Assembly: GCF_033097365.1 (NCBI RefSeq)
Contig: NZ_AP028461.1
Coordinates: 8,556,001 to 8,620,000 of the forward strand
From: Actinoplanes sichuanensis
GTDB lineage: Bacteria; Actinomycetota; Actinomycetes; Mycobacteriales; Micromonosporaceae
DNA length: 64,000 nt
Direction of reading: 5' to 3'
Under the pieces are notes generated by a model that searched no databases, was not told the origin of the DNA, and was given only the letters and a program-made list of their open reading frames with translations. Shown here piece by piece: positions 57,303 to 64,000 of this stretch (position 1 is its first letter; each line of letters opens with the position of its first letter). Made by a program: the position numbers and the translations under genes.

Positions 57303-57701
57303 ATGCCGATCAGCCACGGGCGACTACGCCTCGCCATGTCCGGAGCCGCGCTGGCCTTCCTGACCACGGCCTTGGCGATCCGGGCGGTGGCGCCCCTCGG
57401 CAGCTGGCTGGAGCAGTCGTCCGGGACCGCCCTCTACGCCTCGATGACCTGGGCCGGCGTGCGTTTCCTGGGCCCCCGCCTGACTCCACTCACCGCCGGC
57501 GGGATCGCCCTGGCCTGGTGCTGGGGTGCCGAGTTCTTCCAACTCACCGGGATCCCCGCGGCACTGTCCGCGGACAGCCTGGTGGCCCGTCTCGTGTTCG
57601 GCGCCTCCTTCGACCCGATCGATCTGGTCTGGTACCCGCTCGGCATCGTCCCGCTGGTGGTCTGGCACCACCGGCGGACCGCGGTGCCCGGGCGTCCCTG
57701 A
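57303..57701 (+). CDS. DUF2809 domain membrane protein
   Basis: A 132-residue integral membrane protein of family DUF2809, with four hydrophobic helices at about 9-30, 40-55, 62-80 and 108-124, and the conserved stretch WGAEFFQLTGIPAALSADSL followed by FDPIDLVWYPLG. Its function is unknown; VanZ-like proteins have a similar size and topology. The ATG has TACGAT seven bases upstream (57290-57295), a leaderless pattern. Its stop lies inside a bidirectional terminator. Confidence 0.82.
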   Translation: MPISHGRLRLAMSGAALAFLTTALAIRAVAPLGSWLEQSSGTALYASMTWAGVRFLGPRLTPLTAGGIALAWCWGAEFFQLTGIPAALSADSLVARLVFGASFDPIDLVWYPLGIVPLVVWHHRRTAVPGRP

Positions 57702-57734: not shown

Positions 57735-59306
57735 TCAGGCGACCGGGTCGAGCCGCCGGCTGGGCTGCTCGGCCGGCTGCGCCGCGGCCTTCCGGTCCCG
57801 CAGCAGGATGCCGATCACCGGGGCGGCCAGCACGGTCGTGATCGCCAGCACCCAGAGCGCGGTGTGGAAGCCGTCCGAGTACGCGCCCGCCGCGAAGTCG
57901 ACGAACGCCGCCCGGGACGGCTCGGCCACCTGCCCGGCCACCGTCGCGAGGTCACCCGAGACGATCTGACCGGCCGCCTCGGACGCTGACGGCGCACCCG
58001 CCGGCTGGTAGGCGCCGATGCCCTCGGCCAGCCGGGATGTGGTGAGACCGGCGAGCACCGAACCCATCGTGGCGATCGCGACGACCTCACCGGACAGACG
58101 CATGGTGTTGAACATGCCGGCCGCCATCCCGGCCCGCTCCGGCTCGACGCTGCCGACCGCGGTGGCGTCCAGGATCGCCAGCGAGATACCCATGCCGGCG
58201 CCGATGGTGAGCAGCGGACCGGCGATGGCCAGGACACCCACGCCGCGGTCGATCACGGTGAGCCAGGCCGCGCCGCCACCGACCAGCAGCAGCGTCACCA
58301 CCAGCAGGACCCGGGCCGAGACCCAACGGGACAGGTACCCGGCGACCGACGGCATCACCAGGGTCGGCGCGGTCAGCAGGAGCAGGGTGACACCGGCCCG
58401 CTGGGCGCTCACCCCGTCCACCGAGATCAGGTAGGACGGGAGCAGCACGAGCAGGGTCACGAAGCCGAAGGCCAGGGCGACCGGGACCAGGCAGGCGGCC
58501 ACGTACTTGGACTGACGGAACAGTGACAGGTCGAACATCGGGGCCGGCTGTCGGCGCTCGGCGACCACGAACGCCACCATGAGCAGCGCGCAGACTCCGA
58601 AGAGGACGAGCGTGATCGGGTCGGTCCAGCCGATCTGCGGCGCCTGCACGACGGCCAGCACGAAGGCGAGCAGGCTGCCGGAGAAGGTGATCGTGCCGAG
58701 CCAGTCCACCCGGGACGCGACGGCCGATCGGGACTCCGGCAGCAGCCGGCTGACCAGCAGGACCAGCACTGAGACACCGGCGTGGACGGCGAACACGGTC
58801 CGCCAGCCGCCGATCGAGACCAGCAGGCCGGACAGGAACGGGCCGAACGCCAGGCCGAAGCCGAACGACGTGCCGAGGGCACCGAACGCCTTACCCAGGG
58901 CGGGCCCCTGGAAGGTCTGCGCCAGGATCGCGCTGCCGCTGGTCAGGACGGCCGCGGCACCGACACCGGCGAGAGCGCGGGCGATGTCGATCACCAGAAT
59001 CTGGCCGGCCGCCGCGCTGACCGCCGAGGCAGTGGCGAACAACACGGATCCGATCACGAACATCCGGCGGCGGCCGAGGCGGTCGGCGAGTGATCCGGCG
59101 GCCAGCATCAGGCTCGCGAACAGCAGGTTGTAGGCGTTGACCACCCACTGCAGGGCGGGCAGCGAGGGCTCCAGGTCGGCGTTGATGCCGGGCAGCGCCA
59201 TCGACGACCCGGTGAGGGAGAGCGGCAGCAGACCGCCTGCCACGCAGACCGTGATCAGGGTGAGGGTGGGGCGCGATACGGGCGCGCCGGATCCCTTGTC
59301 AGACAT
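57735..59306 (-). CDS. MFS drug-export-type transporter (DHA2/EmrB family)
   Basis: A 523-residue 14-helix exporter. Motifs are QWVVNAYNLLFASLMLAAGS, LADRLGRRRMFVIG (motif A) and ALAGVGAAAVLTSGSAIL (motif C-like). Exporters of this type pump out antibiotics and other amphiphilic compounds. ATG at 59306 has GGAG nine bases upstream. The divergent promoter region carries palindromic half-sites matching the operator in front of the marR gene, so this exporter is probably derepressed by the same ligand as the monooxygenase operon. Confidence 0.92.
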   Translation of the reverse strand: MSDKGSGAPVSRPTLTLITVCVAGGLLPLSLTGSSMALPGINADLEPSLPALQWVVNAYNLLFASLMLAAGSLADRLGRRRMFVIGSVLFATASAVSAAAGQILVIDIARALAGVGAAAVLTSGSAILAQTFQGPALGKAFGALGTSFGFGLAFGPFLSGLLVSIGGWRTVFAVHAGVSVLVLLVSRLLPESRSAVASRVDWLGTITFSGSLLAFVLAVVQAPQIGWTDPITLVLFGVCALLMVAFVVAERRQPAPMFDLSLFRQSKYVAACLVPVALAFGFVTLLVLLPSYLISVDGVSAQRAGVTLLLLTAPTLVMPSVAGYLSRWVSARVLLVVTLLLVGGGAAWLTVIDRGVGVLAIAGPLLTIGAGMGISLAILDATAVGSVEPERAGMAAGMFNTMRLSGEVVAIATMGSVLAGLTTSRLAEGIGAYQPAGAPSASEAAGQIVSGDLATVAGQVAEPSRAAFVDFAAGAYSDGFHTALWVLAITTVLAAPVIGILLRDRKAAAQPAEQPSRRLDPVA

Positions 59307-59381
59307 GGGACGCGAGCTCCTTGCTCTGCGGGAATGCGCTGTCCGGTCCGCCCATCCAGCACGGCTCAGAACACGGACGCA

Positions 59382-59415
59382 TATTCGAACTCTGATACTC
59401 AATCGGATCCTGATG
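59382..59415. promoter_or_regulatory. Tandem degenerate MarR operators at the exporter promoter
   Basis: Two 16-base sites 18 bases apart: TATTCG-AACT-CTGATA at 59382-59397 and CAATCG-GATC-CTGATG at 59400-59415. Each keeps a good right half of the TATCAG-N4-CTGATA dyad found before marR. They overlap the -10 box of the exporter promoter. Confidence 0.5.
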
Positions 59416-59435
59416 CCTCGGGATCGGGTTGTCAA
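59407..59435 (-). promoter_or_regulatory. Promoter of the MFS exporter
   Basis: On the minus strand, a perfect -35 TTGACA (59430-59435), a 17-base spacer and -10 CAGGAT (59407-59412). It gives a leader of about 95 bases before the exporter ATG. Confidence 0.6.
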
Positions 59436-59480
59436 ATGTCCGGCACGGCGTCCCGGTACCCGCGGCGAGCGGCTCTGACT

Positions 59481-59505
59481 TAGGATGCGTATCAGAGTCC
59501 TGATG
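59481..59505 (+). promoter_or_regulatory. Promoter box and MarR-type operator of the monooxygenase operon
   Basis: A -10-like TAGGAT at 59481-59486 is followed at once by TATCAG-AGTC-CTGATG (59490-59505), which differs by one base from a perfect dyad and would cover the transcription start. The arrangement predicts repression. Confidence 0.6.
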
Positions 59506-59553
59506 CTCATGCGAGAGCATCGGTTTGACAGAGATCACAGAGGGGTGGGAACG

Positions 59554-61122
59554 ATGCCGGAGAACCATCCGGTCCTGGTGGTGGGCGCCGGCCCGGTCGG
59601 CCTCACAGCGGCCGCGATCCTCCTCGGGCGCGGTGTCGACGTCCGGGTGATCGACCGCGCCACCGCCCCCAGCGAGTTCAGCAAGGCGCTCCTGGTGTGG
59701 CCACGAACCCTCGAGGTGCTGCGCCGGCTGGGCGGCGGGCGGCACATCACCGAGCACGGGCAGGACGTCGCCGACTTCCGCTACTGGTCGGACGGGCGCC
59801 CGGTCTGCCGGATCCCGTTCGGTGCCGCCACCCGGCCGAAGATCATCATTCAGCCGGATGTGGAGGCGATGCTGCACGCCGCTCTCGCCGACCGCGGTGG
59901 CAAGCCGGAGTGGCAGACCACGCTCACCGGGCTGAGCCAGGACGACGACGGCGTGACCGCCACCCTGCGCGAGCCGGACGGTGTCGCGCGCACCCACCGG
60001 TTCAGCCACGTGATCGGGGCCGACGGGGCCGGCAGCACGGTCCGCGGCCTGCTCGGGCTGGAGTTCGAGGGTGCCACCTACCCGCAGACCTTCGTGCTCG
60101 GCGACACCGCGATCGACGGCACGGCCGAGCCCGACTCGGTGCACTACTACCTGTCCCCGCGCGGCGTGCTGGTCCTGGTGCCGTTGCCGAACGGGCGGCA
60201 TCGGGTGTTCACCGCCGCGCCCGGCGACCTCACCTCCGACGACGTCCGCCTGGAGCTGCTGCAGGAGCTGGTCGACGACCGCGGGCCGGGTGGTCTGCGA
60301 CTGCACGACCTGTCCTGGAGCGCCGCCTTCCGGATCCACGCGCGGCACGTGGAGCGGCCCCGCGACGGGCGGGTCTTCCTGGCCGGTGACGCCGCGCACA
60401 TCCACAGTCCGGCCGGTGGCCAGGGGCTGAACACCGGGGTCACCGACGCGCACAACCTGGCCTGGAAACTGGCCGCGGTGTGGCACGGCGATCTGCCGGC
60501 GGAGGTTCTCGACTCCTACGAGCCGGAGCGCTCGGCGGTGGCCCGGTCGGTGGTCCGGCAGGCCGAGACACAGACCCGGGCCTGGCTGCTCAAGAAGCCG
60601 TGGCAGGTCGCGGCCCGGGACCTGGCGGCGGGCGCGGCGGCCCGCATCGGGGTCTTCGACAGGCATTACGTGCCCTGGCTGACCGGCACCCGGCACGAGT
60701 ACCCACCCGGCCTGACGGTCGCACCGCGGTCACGCGGCCCCCGCCGGCCGGTCCGGCACGGGGCGTTGATCCCGAACGTCGCGGTCTCCACCGACGGCGA
60801 GATCTGGCGGCCGATCCGCGACGTGCTGCCGGACGACCGCTACACCCTGTTGGTGACCGTTCCGGACGGGGTGGAGCCGCGCCCCGGCCCGGCCTTCTTC
60901 GGGCTGCTCCGGGCGTACCCCCGTTTGATCTCCGGATGGGCCCGCGCCGGGACGCTGCTGAAACCGGCCGGAGACCGACCGGGCGGAACGCCCGGAGGCC
61001 GGATCGCGGTGACCCTGATCCGCCCGGACCACTACGTCGCCGTGCACGAGACCGACCCCGCACTGCCCGCCATCACCCGCCACCTGGCCGCACTGACCCG
61101 GCCCGGAAAGGAGAAACCGTGA
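59554..61122 (+). CDS. FAD-dependent monooxygenase (class A, PHBH fold)
   Basis: A 522-residue flavoprotein hydroxylase of the type acting on phenols, polyketides and antibiotics such as tetracycline or rifamycin. It has the GxGxxG site (VLVVGAGPVGLTAAAIL), the DG motif (VIGADGAGSTVRGLLGL), and the GD motif with FLAGDAAHIHSPAGGQG and LNTGVTDAHNLAWKLA. The C-terminal part (about 400-522) is the thioredoxin-like domain usual in this group. The substrate is unknown. GGGGTGGGA precedes the ATG. First gene of a run that includes the reductase, hydrolase and marR genes; its stop overlaps the reductase start. Confidence 0.93.
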   Translation: MPENHPVLVVGAGPVGLTAAAILLGRGVDVRVIDRATAPSEFSKALLVWPRTLEVLRRLGGGRHITEHGQDVADFRYWSDGRPVCRIPFGAATRPKIIIQPDVEAMLHAALADRGGKPEWQTTLTGLSQDDDGVTATLREPDGVARTHRFSHVIGADGAGSTVRGLLGLEFEGATYPQTFVLGDTAIDGTAEPDSVHYYLSPRGVLVLVPLPNGRHRVFTAAPGDLTSDDVRLELLQELVDDRGPGGLRLHDLSWSAAFRIHARHVERPRDGRVFLAGDAAHIHSPAGGQGLNTGVTDAHNLAWKLAAVWHGDLPAEVLDSYEPERSAVARSVVRQAETQTRAWLLKKPWQVAARDLAAGAAARIGVFDRHYVPWLTGTRHEYPPGLTVAPRSRGPRRPVRHGALIPNVAVSTDGEIWRPIRDVLPDDRYTLLVTVPDGVEPRPGPAFFGLLRAYPRLISGWARAGTLLKPAGDRPGGTPGGRIAVTLIRPDHYVAVHETDPALPAITRHLAALTRPGKEKP

Positions 61123-62072
61123 TCGACACCACCACGCTCGGCACGAACGGACCCGAGGTGGGCCGCGTCGGCCTCGGATGCATGGGCATGTCCTGGGTCT
61201 ACGACGAGCAGGGCCGCGACGAGACGACCTCGATCAAGGTCATCCACGAGGCGCTCGACTCCGGCGCGACGCTGATCGACACCGCCGACATGTACGGGCC
61301 GTTCGACAACGAATACCTGGTCGGCCGGGCGCTGGCCGGACGACGCGACGACGCGGTGCTGGCCACCAAGGGTGGTCTGATCGTCGACGGCGCCCGCAAT
61401 CTGCACCGCAACGGCCGCCCCGAGCACCTGCGTGCCGCTCTGGACGCCAGCCTGCTGCGGCTGCGCACCGACCACGTCGACCTCTACCAGTTGCACCGGG
61501 TCGACCCGGCGGTGCCGCTCGCCGAGACCTGGGGCGCGATGGCCGAGATGGTCGCGGCCGGCAAGGCGCGGGCGATCGGGCTCTCCGAGGCGGACCCGGC
61601 GCAGATCCGCGAGGCGCACGCCATCCACCCGGTCACCAGCGTCCAGTCCGAGCTCTCCCTGTGGACGCCCGACGTGCTGGCCGGGGTGCTGCCACTGACC
61701 GAGGAACTGGGCATCGCGCTCATCCCGTTCTCGCCGCTCGGCCGCGGGTTCCTGGCCGGCCGGTTCACCTCACCGGAGGATCTGCCGGCCGGCGACTGGC
61801 GGCACGGCAATCCGCGCTTCCAGGCCGACACGATGGCGAAGAACCAGAAGATCGCCGAGGTGGTACGCGAGCAGGCGGCTCGGCTGGAGGTGACGCCGGC
61901 GCAGCTCGCGCTGGCCTGGGTGCTCGCGCAGGGCCGGTTCGTGGTGCCCATCCCCGGTACGAAGAACCCTGCCTACCTGCGGGACAACCTGGCCGCCGCG
62001 TCGGTCGAGATCCCGGCCGAGGTGCTGGCCGTCCTCGACGGGCTGCCCGCCGCCGCCGGTCACCGCTACTGA
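61119..62072 (+). CDS. Aldo/keto reductase
   Basis: A 317-residue NADPH-dependent reductase. The catalytic tetrad is visible: Asp and Tyr in TLIDTADMYGPFDNEYLVG, Lys in AVLATKGG, and His in LYQLHRVDP. The coenzyme loop includes IPGTKNPAYLRDNLAAASVE. It begins LGTNGPEVGRVGLGCMGMSW, typical of the AKR family related to pyridoxal reductases and stress oxidoreductases. GTGA overlap with the monooxygenase indicates tight coupling; GGAAAGGAG precedes the start. Confidence 0.94.
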   Translation: MIDTTTLGTNGPEVGRVGLGCMGMSWVYDEQGRDETTSIKVIHEALDSGATLIDTADMYGPFDNEYLVGRALAGRRDDAVLATKGGLIVDGARNLHRNGRPEHLRAALDASLLRLRTDHVDLYQLHRVDPAVPLAETWGAMAEMVAAGKARAIGLSEADPAQIREAHAIHPVTSVQSELSLWTPDVLAGVLPLTEELGIALIPFSPLGRGFLAGRFTSPEDLPAGDWRHGNPRFQADTMAKNQKIAEVVREQAARLEVTPAQLALAWVLAQGRFVVPIPGTKNPAYLRDNLAAASVEIPAEVLAVLDGLPAAAGHRY

Positions 62073-62082
62073 GGAGGAGCCG

Positions 62083-62607
62083 ATGGACGCGCTGATCCTC
62101 ATCGACCTGCAGACCTGGATCACCCGGATGCCACTGTCACCGCGGCACGGCGCGGAGGTCGTCGAGCGGTGCGCCACGCTCGCCGCCGACAGCCGGGCGG
62201 CCGGCGTGCCGGTCTGGCACGTGCGCTACCTCGACGGCACCGGCCCCGGCGCGGACCCGGCGGCCCCACGCAACCGGATCGTGCCCGGCCTCGAGGTGCG
62301 CCCGGACGAGCCGGTGATCACCAAGTACGGGCTCGGCGCGTTCGACGGCACCCCGCTGGCCGACCGGTTGCGCGCCGCCGGGGTGACCCGCGTGGGGCTG
62401 GCCGGCATCGCCCTCTCGCACGGTGTCGGTGTCACGGCCCGGGAGGCGGCGGCCCTCGGCTTCCGGGTCACGGTGCTCGAAGACGCGACCACGAGCCTCT
62501 CCATGGAGGGGCATCGACAGGCCCTACAGGTGCTGAACGGCCTGGTCACCGTCACATCAGCGGCGTCCTGGGGAGTATCGGAGGTAGAACACATATCAGG
62601 ACACTGA
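62083..62607 (+). CDS. Isochorismatase family hydrolase lacking the catalytic Cys
   Basis: A 174-residue cysteine-hydrolase-fold protein. The N-terminal Asp (ALILIDLQ) and the Lys region (VITKYGLGAFDGTPL) are present. At the usual catalytic Cys position the sequence reads GIALSHGVGVTAREAAA, with Gly instead of Cys. Nicotinamidase-type amidases need the Cys, whereas true isochorismatases such as PhzD work without it, so an enol ether or other non-amidase substrate is more likely (inference). GAGGAGGAG precedes the ATG, 10 bases past the reductase stop. Confidence 0.88.
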   Translation: MDALILIDLQTWITRMPLSPRHGAEVVERCATLAADSRAAGVPVWHVRYLDGTGPGADPAAPRNRIVPGLEVRPDEPVITKYGLGAFDGTPLADRLRAAGVTRVGLAGIALSHGVGVTAREAAALGFRVTVLEDATTSLSMEGHRQALQVLNGLVTVTSAASWGVSEVEHISGH

Positions 62608-62609
62608 TA
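62594..62609. promoter_or_regulatory. Perfect MarR-type operator upstream of marR
   Basis: TATCAG-GACA-CTGATA, a perfect dyad of two 6-base arms with a 4-base centre, overlapping the end of the isochorismatase gene and 43 bases before the marR start. It is the best copy of the motif also seen at 59490-59505 and 59382-59415. Confidence 0.65.
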
Positions 62610-62652
62610 GAGTGGCCGCATTCTCCGACCATCCTCGCCAGGGAGGCCAAGC

Positions 62653-63102
62653 GTGCCGACGACGACGCGACTGCCGATCGACCAACGGCTCGGCAACCTG
62701 GTCAAACGGGCCGAGCAGGTGGTCATCGCGGGCAAGACCGCCGTCCTGCGCGATCTCGACCTGACCGTCCCGCAGTACAGCGCTCTCCTGGTGCTCGGCG
62801 AGCATCCCGGGATCTCCGGGGCCAACCTGGCCCGTCGCTGCATGGTCACCCCGCAGACGATGGCGACGATGCTGGCCAACCTGGAGACGCGCGGGCTCGT
62901 CGAGCGGCGCCGCTCGGAGGATCACGGTCAGGTCCTGGTCGCCCGGCTCACCCGGGCGGGCCAGACCCTGCTTCGCAAGGCCGACGAGCGGGCCGTCGAG
63001 CTCGAGCTGCGGATGGCCGAGGCCTTCAACGACAAAGAGCGAGAGCAGCTCCAGGAGTACGTGGAACGACTCATCACCGCGGTCGAGTCCGCCGGGCGGT
63101 AA
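62653..63102 (+). CDS. MarR family transcriptional regulator
   Basis: A 149-residue winged-helix repressor. The fold is clear: LVKRAEQVVIAGKTAVLRDL, then VPQYSALLVLGEHPGISGAN, LARRCMVTPQTMATMLANLE (recognition helix), and RRSEDHGQVLVARLTRAGQT for the wing. Proteins of this family are released from DNA by small aromatic or oxidising ligands. GGGAGG precedes the GTG at 62653 by six bases. The matching palindromes in its own leader and in the exporter/monooxygenase spacer make autoregulation and control of the whole cluster likely. Confidence 0.93.
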   Translation: MPTTTRLPIDQRLGNLVKRAEQVVIAGKTAVLRDLDLTVPQYSALLVLGEHPGISGANLARRCMVTPQTMATMLANLETRGLVERRRSEDHGQVLVARLTRAGQTLLRKADERAVELELRMAEAFNDKEREQLQEYVERLITAVESAGR

Positions 63103-63144
63103 CCCGGGCGGCCACGGCCGCCCACTTCACGGGGGATCCGCACC

Positions 63145-64000
63145 ATGACCACGCATCGTCTCCGGCTGCACGCCGCGACACTGGAACTGCCCGCCACCAC
63201 CGACACCCTGTCCACCGCGATCGCCGAGGGCCGGTTGCGCGGCCGGCATCCCGAGGTCGACCCGTCGACCGCCCTGCCGGCGACCGCGGGCAGCCCGATA
63301 GACCTGGCGGCCGCCGCGGCACGGACCGTTCTGGAACGCACCGGTCACCCGGCGGCCGAGGTCGAGGACCTGTATTACGCCTGGACCTACTTCCAGGGGG
63401 CGCACTTCTGGTCGCCCGCACACGCGCTCGCCGACCGGACCGGGCTCACCTCGGCCAATCCGATCGGCCTCCAGCAGATGTGCAACGGCGCCGGGGCCGC
63501 GGTGCACCTCGCCGACCGGGCGGCCCGGGCCGGCGCCCCGTTCACCGCGCTGATCTGCACCGGTGACGCGTTCCGCGGCCCGGGCTTCGACCGCTGGTCG
63601 GGTGACTACGGCGTGCTCTACGGCGACGCCGGGACCGCGATGCTGGCCGTCTCCGCCGATCATCCGGCCCCGATCGACGGCCCGTCGAGCACCCTGCTGA
63701 GCCTGCACACCGGAGCTCTGCCGCACCTGGAGAGCATGCACCGGCCGGTCGACGCGTCGGTCGACGCCGCCCCGGCCGCCGCGTGGCCGATCGACGTGCA
63801 GGCGACCAAGCGTCGCTATCTGCAGGAGCACGGCGGTGATTCGCTGGCCGAGGCGATGCGCGGCATGGTCGGCAAACTGCTCGCCAGGGTCTTCACCGAC
63901 CTCGCCGGTCAGGGCCGGACCGCCGACGGGGTGGTTTATCTGCCCCGGCTCATGAATGCGACGTTGGATTCGCTCTACGCCCCGGCCGTGGCCGCACTGA
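63145..64000 (+). CDS. KAS III-like beta-ketoacyl-ACP synthase family protein (3' end outside window)
   Basis: The first 285 residues of a thiolase-fold enzyme of the ketoacyl-ACP synthase III family; the frame is still open at the window edge. The nucleophilic Cys is residue 113 in IGLQQMCNGAGAAV, at the usual KAS III position, and VLYGDAGTAMLAVS matches the conserved glycine-rich strand. Where KAS III has the HQAN motif the sequence reads YLPRLMN, so the catalytic His appears to be Arg (residue 268). Such variants may act as acyltransferases instead of condensing enzymes. GGGGGAT precedes the ATG. It follows marR by 42 bases and suggests that a biosynthetic cluster continues to the right. 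Confidence 0.85.
   Translation, partial: MTTHRLRLHAATLELPATTDTLSTAIAEGRLRGRHPEVDPSTALPATAGSPIDLAAAAARTVLERTGHPAAEVEDLYYAWTYFQGAHFWSPAHALADRTGLTSANPIGLQQMCNGAGAAVHLADRAARAGAPFTALICTGDAFRGPGFDRWSGDYGVLYGDAGTAMLAVSADHPAPIDGPSSTLLSLHTGALPHLESMHRPVDASVDAAPAAAWPIDVQATKRRYLQEHGGDSLAEAMRGMVGKLLARVFTDLAGQGRTADGVVYLPRLMNATLDSLYAPAVAAL

Follow-up and report, generated by a model that had tools for sequence, protein, structure and literature searches.

The subject here is a 64,000-nucleotide stretch of the Actinoplanes sichuanensis genome (contig NZ_AP028461.1, positions 8,556,001 to 8,620,000; hereafter the window), and in particular a set of nine genes that begins at 57735 and extends past the window's end at 64000 to about 67190. 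They encode an MFS exporter, a flavin adenine dinucleotide (FAD)-dependent monooxygenase, an aldo/keto reductase, an isochorismatase-like hydrolase, a MarR-family regulator, a DpsC/CerJ-type acyltransferase-like protein, an AfsA-type protein, FabH, and a HAD phosphatase. We favor, with confidence somewhat above even, the view that the nine genes would constitute one inserted butenolide-type biosynthetic cassette, in which MarR represses the export, tailoring and marR promoters. The cassette probably makes and exports a small butenolide- or furan-like molecule, a type of product that is the best guess because the loci with related gene sets are of the butenolide or furan kind. A sequence-only reading of the window had described a MarR-controlled exporter and oxidoreductase cluster with a shared palindromic operator; its observations are partly confirmed, and the interpretation it placed on them is partly supported.

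The predicted operator and the putative promoters

The predicted sites and promoters are these, in window coordinates:

59382..59397, plus strand: operator copy with two mismatches, just downstream of the putative exporter -10
59407..59435, minus strand: putative exporter promoter TTGACA-17-CAGGAT (by eye; both hexamers kept in A. xinjiangensis)
59481..59486, plus strand: putative -10 of the monooxygenase operon, TAGGAT (by eye; kept in A. xinjiangensis)
59490..59505, plus strand: operator TATCAGAGTCCTGATG, one mismatch, lying where transcription of the monooxygenase operon putatively starts
62594..62609, plus strand: operator TATCAGGACACTGATA, perfect, overlapping the putative marR -10
62608..62613, plus strand: putative marR -10, TAGAGT (by eye; overlaps the operator end)

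The sequence-only reading had placed a perfect TATCAG-GACA-CTGATA before marR and a near-perfect copy at the monooxygenase promoter, and both are there. It had also seen two half-degraded copies within 59382-59415. The first of these stands, with its two mismatches and its identity to the A. xinjiangensis sequence. The second, 59400-59415, was dropped as a fourth operator, having 5/12 mismatches (manual count) and being poorly kept in A. xinjiangensis; it reads as a half-site only, its best-kept part, ATCCTGA, spanning the putative exporter -10 and the remainder being changed in A. xinjiangensis. Also dropped was an inverted repeat at 59502-59521 (GATGCTC-ATGCGA-GAGCATC), directly after the monooxygenase operator, which is partly kept in A. 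xinjiangensis with both arms altered.

The case for a common operator rests on conservation and on rarity. The nearest named relatives of the MarR protein are found in A. xinjiangensis (96% identity) and A. italicus. In A. xinjiangensis all three operator sites are present in matching places: the exporter site is the same at 16/16 bases, the marR site has perfect arms and an altered spacer, and the monooxygenase site, at the equivalent position, has two mismatches. In A. italicus the operator before marR is kept with one mismatch and a varied spacer, and the DNA further upstream has diverged. A strict sigma-70 scan of 59290-62700 called no promoter, and the putative promoters listed above are backed by their conservation. 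The predicted positions of the sites relative to them would fit repression by occlusion.

The sequence-only reading had proposed a genome-wide search for the 16-base motif. In the 12.1-Mb genome of A. sichuanensis (a single contig of 12,144,028 bases), TATCAG-N4-CTGATA occurs with at most one mismatch in only two places, both in this cluster. Since the motif was defined from the 62594 site, only the remaining sites count as independent evidence, and the independent fact is that the sole other such place in the genome, the 59490 site, is at a distance of only 3.1 kb. A simple calculation puts the chance of one random genome place falling in the 9.5-kb cluster stretch at about 1 in 1,300. Allowing two mismatches yields 49 places, of which the cluster's extra one is 59382-59397. 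Within the window alone the excess is modest: nine sites with up to three mismatches against a shuffle mean of 3.73, with nine reached in 2 of 100 shuffles. Nine other genomes were searched at up to one mismatch. A. italicus gave three places (control one) and A. xinjiangensis two (control two), counts so close to control that the marR site there is not distinguished by rarity alone.

Among the two-mismatch matches in the A. sichuanensis genome, one 16-mer, TATCAGCACCCCGGTA, is present in identical form at five places, on one strand or the other (G000:C1 1127452, 1712409, 2860628, 4578614 and 4849996), perhaps as part of a repeated element.

Taken together, a predicted MarR operator common to the exporter, monooxygenase and marR promoters is well supported by these comparisons.

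The regulator and its homologs

The regulator is encoded here:

62653..63102, plus strand: MarR-family regulator, 149 amino acids (PF12802 E 2.2e-14)

Its winged-helix domain matches both PF12802 (53.8 bits, cut-off 27) and PF01047 (45.5 bits, cut-off 24.6), and the conserved palindrome is present at marR's own promoter as well as at the neighboring predicted targets. The motif was surveyed in the region from -130 to +20 of marR at 64 loci, representing 62 distinct homologs; setting aside three Actinoplanes rows already used for the footprints leaves 59. Of these, 17/59 have the motif upstream of marR with up to two mismatches, 6/59 with up to one, and 3/59 exactly. Over 200 dinucleotide shuffles of the same upstream regions, the corresponding means were 0.17, 0 and 0, with a maximum of two per shuffle at up to two mismatches. 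By class of MarR identity, the motif was found in 6/30 homologs at 50-60%, 3/17 at 45-50%, and 8/12 at 30-45%. Other homologs show, by eye, variants of the 6-4-6 palindrome form.

The genome also carries a MarR paralog (L041, G000:C1:7126759-7127178) with 55% identity and a serine at position 63. A different palindrome, TGACAGGACTCTGTCA (TGACAG-N4-CTGTCA), lies by it, near the beginning of a divergent gene, and similar palindromes precede L015 and L042.

The cassette as a probable inserted unit

The limits of the cassette emerge from a comparison with relatives that lack most of it. A DNA comparison with A. italicus gave matches at 57345-57674, at 62578-63094, and from 67218 onward; 4.9 kb and 4.1 kb are thus missing on the two sides of marR. 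What A. italicus has between a DUF2809 gene and a gene for a large secreted protein (L044 7554-8522) is only marR and its operator, and nowhere in its genome did the AfsA domain or the KAS III-like protein find a match. A second close relative (L215, genome G029) has the DUF2809 gene directly beside the large secreted-protein gene, marR being absent as well as the cluster, and in the window and in A. xinjiangensis all nine genes lie between the same flanks. The simplest history suggested by these alignments is that the whole cassette was inserted and that A. italicus later lost all but marR and the operator, although stepwise gain, the alternative to a single insertion, could also have produced the pattern. 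A match to the KAS III-like gene at E <= 1e-40 was obtained in 5 of 67 Actinoplanes genomes: in that of the window itself, in one at close identity (86%), and in three at a greater distance (37-44%). The right-hand neighbor is:

67227-70706: large secreted protein (carbohydrate-binding modules by eye)

Genes of the cassette

Besides marR, the genes lying at least partly within the window are:

57735..59306, minus strand: MFS exporter (DHA2/EmrB-like), 523 amino acids (PF07690 E 1.9e-41)
59554..61122, plus strand: FAD-dependent monooxygenase, 522 amino acids (PF01494 E 8.3e-73)
61119..62072, plus strand: aldo/keto reductase (PF00248 E 1.4e-71), its start overlapping the monooxygenase stop
62083..62607, plus strand: isochorismatase-family hydrolase (PF00857 E 1.2e-33)
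63145..64000, continuing to 64167, plus strand: DpsC/ChlB3/CerJ-type KAS III-like protein (PDB 4xs7 E 5.6e-30)

The gene labels of the sequence-only reading agree with Pfam, and its KAS III-like enzyme can be refined to the DpsC/ChlB3/CerJ type, true FabH being a separate gene further on. The DNA beyond 64000, where it had suggested looking for further cluster genes, contains those for the AfsA-type hotdog protein, FabH and the HAD phosphatase (HAD-IB).

The exporter (93% identity in A. xinjiangensis) scores 173.9 bits against TIGR00711, under the cut-off of 230.2. The best solved relative of the monooxygenase is 4k2x, a polyketide oxygenase/hydroxylase. The isochorismatase-family protein reads HGVGVTA, with glycine at the position where, we presume, amidohydrolase members of the family have their catalytic cysteine; it may be of the true vinyl-ether hydrolase type. 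The KAS III-like protein, which matches ChlB3 (E 7.3e-17) and CerJ (E 3.1e-15), has residues C113 and H299, and GHLGxGD replaces the GNT motif of KAS III; it is a probable acyltransferase by these features.

Judged by its nearest relatives, the cluster might be taken for an aromatic or polyketide pathway under MarR, as the monooxygenase has a polyketide hydroxylase for its closest relative and the KAS III-like protein most resembles daunorubicin DpsC and ChlB3. No polyketide synthase (PKS), cyclase or acyl carrier protein (ACP) is found among the nine genes by profile matches, however, and the synthase-type gene encodes an AfsA hotdog, so that such a pathway seems very improbable. The sequence-only reading, which had the block either detoxifying or making an aromatic or polyketide-like compound, was too broad in this respect: the AfsA-type, FabH and HAD-IB set occurs in butenolide and furan loci, and the nine genes include no PKS.

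The AfsA-type protein and the afsA/fabH promoter

AfsA has two hotdog domains. The AfsA-type protein of the cassette matches PF03756 (60.3 bits, cut-off 24) in one stretch, a single hotdog, and the AfsA protein of another locus (L060) has two such stretches. In a predicted model the hotdog occupies roughly residues 77-225 and is preceded by a 75-residue part of alternating alpha/beta structure, and a structure comparison of the model (VIA-align) covers mainly residues 77-225.

Between afsA and fabH, which are divergent, there is a strongly conserved block containing a perfect 7-1-7 palindrome, CGTTCGG-A-CCGAACG, at 65266-65280 in window coordinates (L011:9266-9280), kept in A. xinjiangensis. 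A genome search with a 17-base pattern found one exact match and five more with one mismatch; with up to two mismatches there are 33 forward matches in all, as against three for a control pattern. The claim of one repressor for the block is thus supported for three promoters (exporter, monooxygenase and marR) but not for afsA/fabH, where the different palindrome stands and where TATCAG-N4-CTGATA was rejected.

A more specific mechanism can be considered at this point. The sole cysteine of the MarR protein, Cys63, lies at the helix-turn-helix, and 49 of the 62 distinct homologs (the window's MarR counted) have cysteine at that position, in 35 of them as the only one in the aligned stretch. A thiol switch at Cys63 is possible, although conservation of the cysteine is in itself no evidence of one. 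By this mechanism, the butenolide would be a reactive Michael acceptor, and the product, or a quinone-like oxidation product, would modify Cys63 as a one-cysteine electrophile switch, opening the exporter and tailoring promoters, with afsA/fabH left to a separate regulator at CGTTCGG-A-CCGAACG. We regard this elaboration as quite unlikely.

Related loci

The synthase half of the cassette recurs elsewhere. In another Actinoplanes (L161), genes for AfsA (40% identity), HAD (49%), FabH (59%) and the KAS III-like protein (40%) are contiguous, in the order AfsA-HAD-FabH-acyltransferase, with no MarR, MFS or monooxygenase match in the 20 kb read. Plasmid pSSP121038 has the order FabH-ACP-TauD-AfsA-HAD-two hypotheticals-aldo/keto reductase. 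Seven other loci were found by way of the AfsA-like protein: HAD is nearby in L112, L113, L115 and L118, FabH in L112 and L114, and neither in L116 and L117. Next to their AfsA-like gene, L113 (10038-10724; 54%) and L114 (7933-8787; 60%) have hypothetical proteins matching those of the AfsA clusters of Ruegeria pomeroyi and of pSSP121038; the A. xinjiangensis cassette showed none of these.

The tailoring and export half recurs as well. A locus found by its AvrD gene (L162) has an MFS protein (54%) and a monooxygenase (55%) with AvrD, HAD, ACP and FabH. It is the only one of 15 AvrD loci fetched whose MFS and monooxygenase proteins are so similar to those of the cassette, and monooxygenase matches are absent from 13 of the 15. 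Of 34 named MarR loci, seven (L046, L056, L062, L065, L066, L069 and L073) have monooxygenase, HAD, aldo/keto reductase, MFS (47-49%), MarR and KAS III-like genes together; L058 and L063 have a comparable set with an MFS protein of only 29-30% identity, and L074 lacks the KAS III-like gene. In S. composti, the one of these loci whose wider flank was read, FabH follows together with a two-hotdog AfsA and, by eye, an ACP and a ketosynthase. At L178 (9512-11117), short stretches resembling KAS III and HAD come after a MarR homolog (50%), with an ACP (by eye) between them; this locus may be a degenerate relative of the cassette. Plasmid regions of S. clavuligerus, S. camelliae and S. violaceusniger added little.

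Function and alternatives

If the cassette is what it appears to be, then the following scheme may be drawn. FabH would form a short beta-ketoacyl-ACP on a housekeeping ACP, which the AfsA-type enzyme would condense with a phosphorylated keto-alcohol to give a butenolide. The HAD enzyme would remove the phosphate, the reductase, monooxygenase and acyltransferase would tailor the butenolide, and the MFS protein would export the product. A MarR dimer on TATCAG-N4-CTGATA at the exporter promoter, at the start of the monooxygenase operon, and at its own -10 would block RNA polymerase until the product or a late intermediate frees it from the DNA, so that export and late tailoring would rise only with the compound present. 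The afsA/fabH promoter would be under other control.

Several observations tell against this scheme. None of the nine genes encodes an ACP. The AfsA-type protein misses the NCBIfam ScbA/BarX equivalog cut-off (28.5 vs 200 bits) and appears, from its profile match and model, to contain just one hotdog, its N-terminal part being different. The afsA/fabH promoter has no copy of the TATCAG motif at up to three mismatches, and the genome count of 49 at up to two mismatches is not far above the 34 found with a reversed control pattern. Among the MarR homologs, 42/59 lack the motif at up to two mismatches, including seven Streptomyces loci with an equal gene set; the operator sequence therefore varies across the relatives of the gene cluster. 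The motif also occurs before other open reading frames of the surveyed loci in 19/384 cases, a control that includes windows seeing the same operator from the opposite strand. Finally, one locus (L177) has the arrangement MFS-MarR-monooxygenase and, over the 20 kb read, nothing matching AfsA or AvrD, and so the tailoring and export half can exist alone.

That last locus is what might be expected if the system were instead a detoxification or self-defense module, with MarR sensing a foreign aromatic or electrophile and inducing the exporter, monooxygenase and reductase, and with AfsA, FabH and HAD as unrelated neighbors. An aldo/keto reductase of about 50-67% identity near many MarR homologs, and the afsA/fabH promoter without a MarR site, point the same way. 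However, the nine genes are jointly present or (marR apart) jointly absent between the same two flanks, and similar tailoring genes stand beside AvrD or AfsA synthases in L162, L165 and L183/L184. Such a module is unlikely, though it deserves some weight.

A signaling module, in which the product would be a gamma-butyrolactone-like hormone and the cassette would serve as an autoregulator circuit instead of an antibiotic-like pathway, would explain the AfsA-domain enzyme. A TetR-type receptor gene is missing from the nine (no search for one was made in the wider genome), the AfsA-like protein falls far under the ScbA/BarX cut-off, and the dedicated exporter, monooxygenase and acyltransferase suggest an end product. 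We consider this quite unlikely.

The butenolide cassette, if such it is, offers a testable handle on clusters with short single-hotdog AfsA-like proteins, a marine relative of which lies in a killing cluster whose product is not named in the available text of its description (PMC7426152). The operator predicts which promoters would open on loss of marR, which would be an easy way to activate an Actinoplanes pathway that may be silent. In A. italicus there is a natural case of regulator and operator left behind without the cluster.

Comparison with known systems

Literature searches found no published description of this cluster. The sphydrofuran cluster of Streptomyces ambofaciens (GI-9), as listed in the available part of its description, has an MFS protein, a KAS III-family protein, two aldo/keto reductases, an FAD monooxygenase, a phosphatase, KAS III, and a butenolide synthase (PMC11195616). 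It shares with the cassette the MFS, KAS III-like protein, aldo/keto reductase, FAD monooxygenase, phosphatase and KAS III, and differs in that its synthase is of the AvrD type rather than an AfsA hotdog, its phosphatase is a histidine phosphatase rather than HAD, and an ACP is present. L165 repeats the gene order published there (several labels by eye), its monooxygenase and KAS III-like protein having 35% and 28% identity to those of the cassette; the helix-turn-helix gene beside its MFS gene has no match to the cassette MarR at E 1e-6.

For methylenomycin, encoded on SCP1, the accessible text proposes that the butenolide synthase MmyD condenses a beta-ketoacyl-ACP (MmyC), with tailoring next and a flavin monooxygenase last (PMC12593393). 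The proposed logic of the pathway resembles that suggested here, a comparison by description, not by sequence, and according to that text the enzymes differ, MmyD being AvrD-like and MmyO LimB-like (PMC12593393).

The Ruegeria pomeroyi DSS-3 SPOA0342 cluster, which has an AfsA relative, is, in the portion of its description available, needed for diffusible killing (from transposon mutants) and for immunity (PMC7426152). The relative belongs with the cassette protein to a common short AfsA-like family (27-29% identity), and a HAD-IB hydrolase, an aldo/keto reductase and an MFS protein are annotated beside it. The cluster differs in having LysR and other regulators, a carboxymuconolactone decarboxylase and a tautomerase, and no FabH or FAD monooxygenase is annotated in the 16.7 kb shown.

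Formicamycin, whose regulators ForZ and ForJ we take to be of the MarR family, is an aromatic polyketide. In the parts of the reports available, ForZ occludes the start of an exporter gene and is inactivated by the product, and ForJ senses redox through one cysteine in its DNA-binding domain (PMC12421854), and in the RslR4/rslT4 system of rishirilide biosynthesis RslR4 is a repressor of both its own gene and an MFS exporter, and is responsive to rishirilides (PMC7917814). These repressors differ from the cassette MarR in their operator sequences and in serving aromatic polyketide clusters (type II for rishirilide, PMC7917814). They resemble it, so far as those texts describe them, in acting at palindromic or A/T-rich sites on the exporter or biosynthetic promoters of producing clusters.

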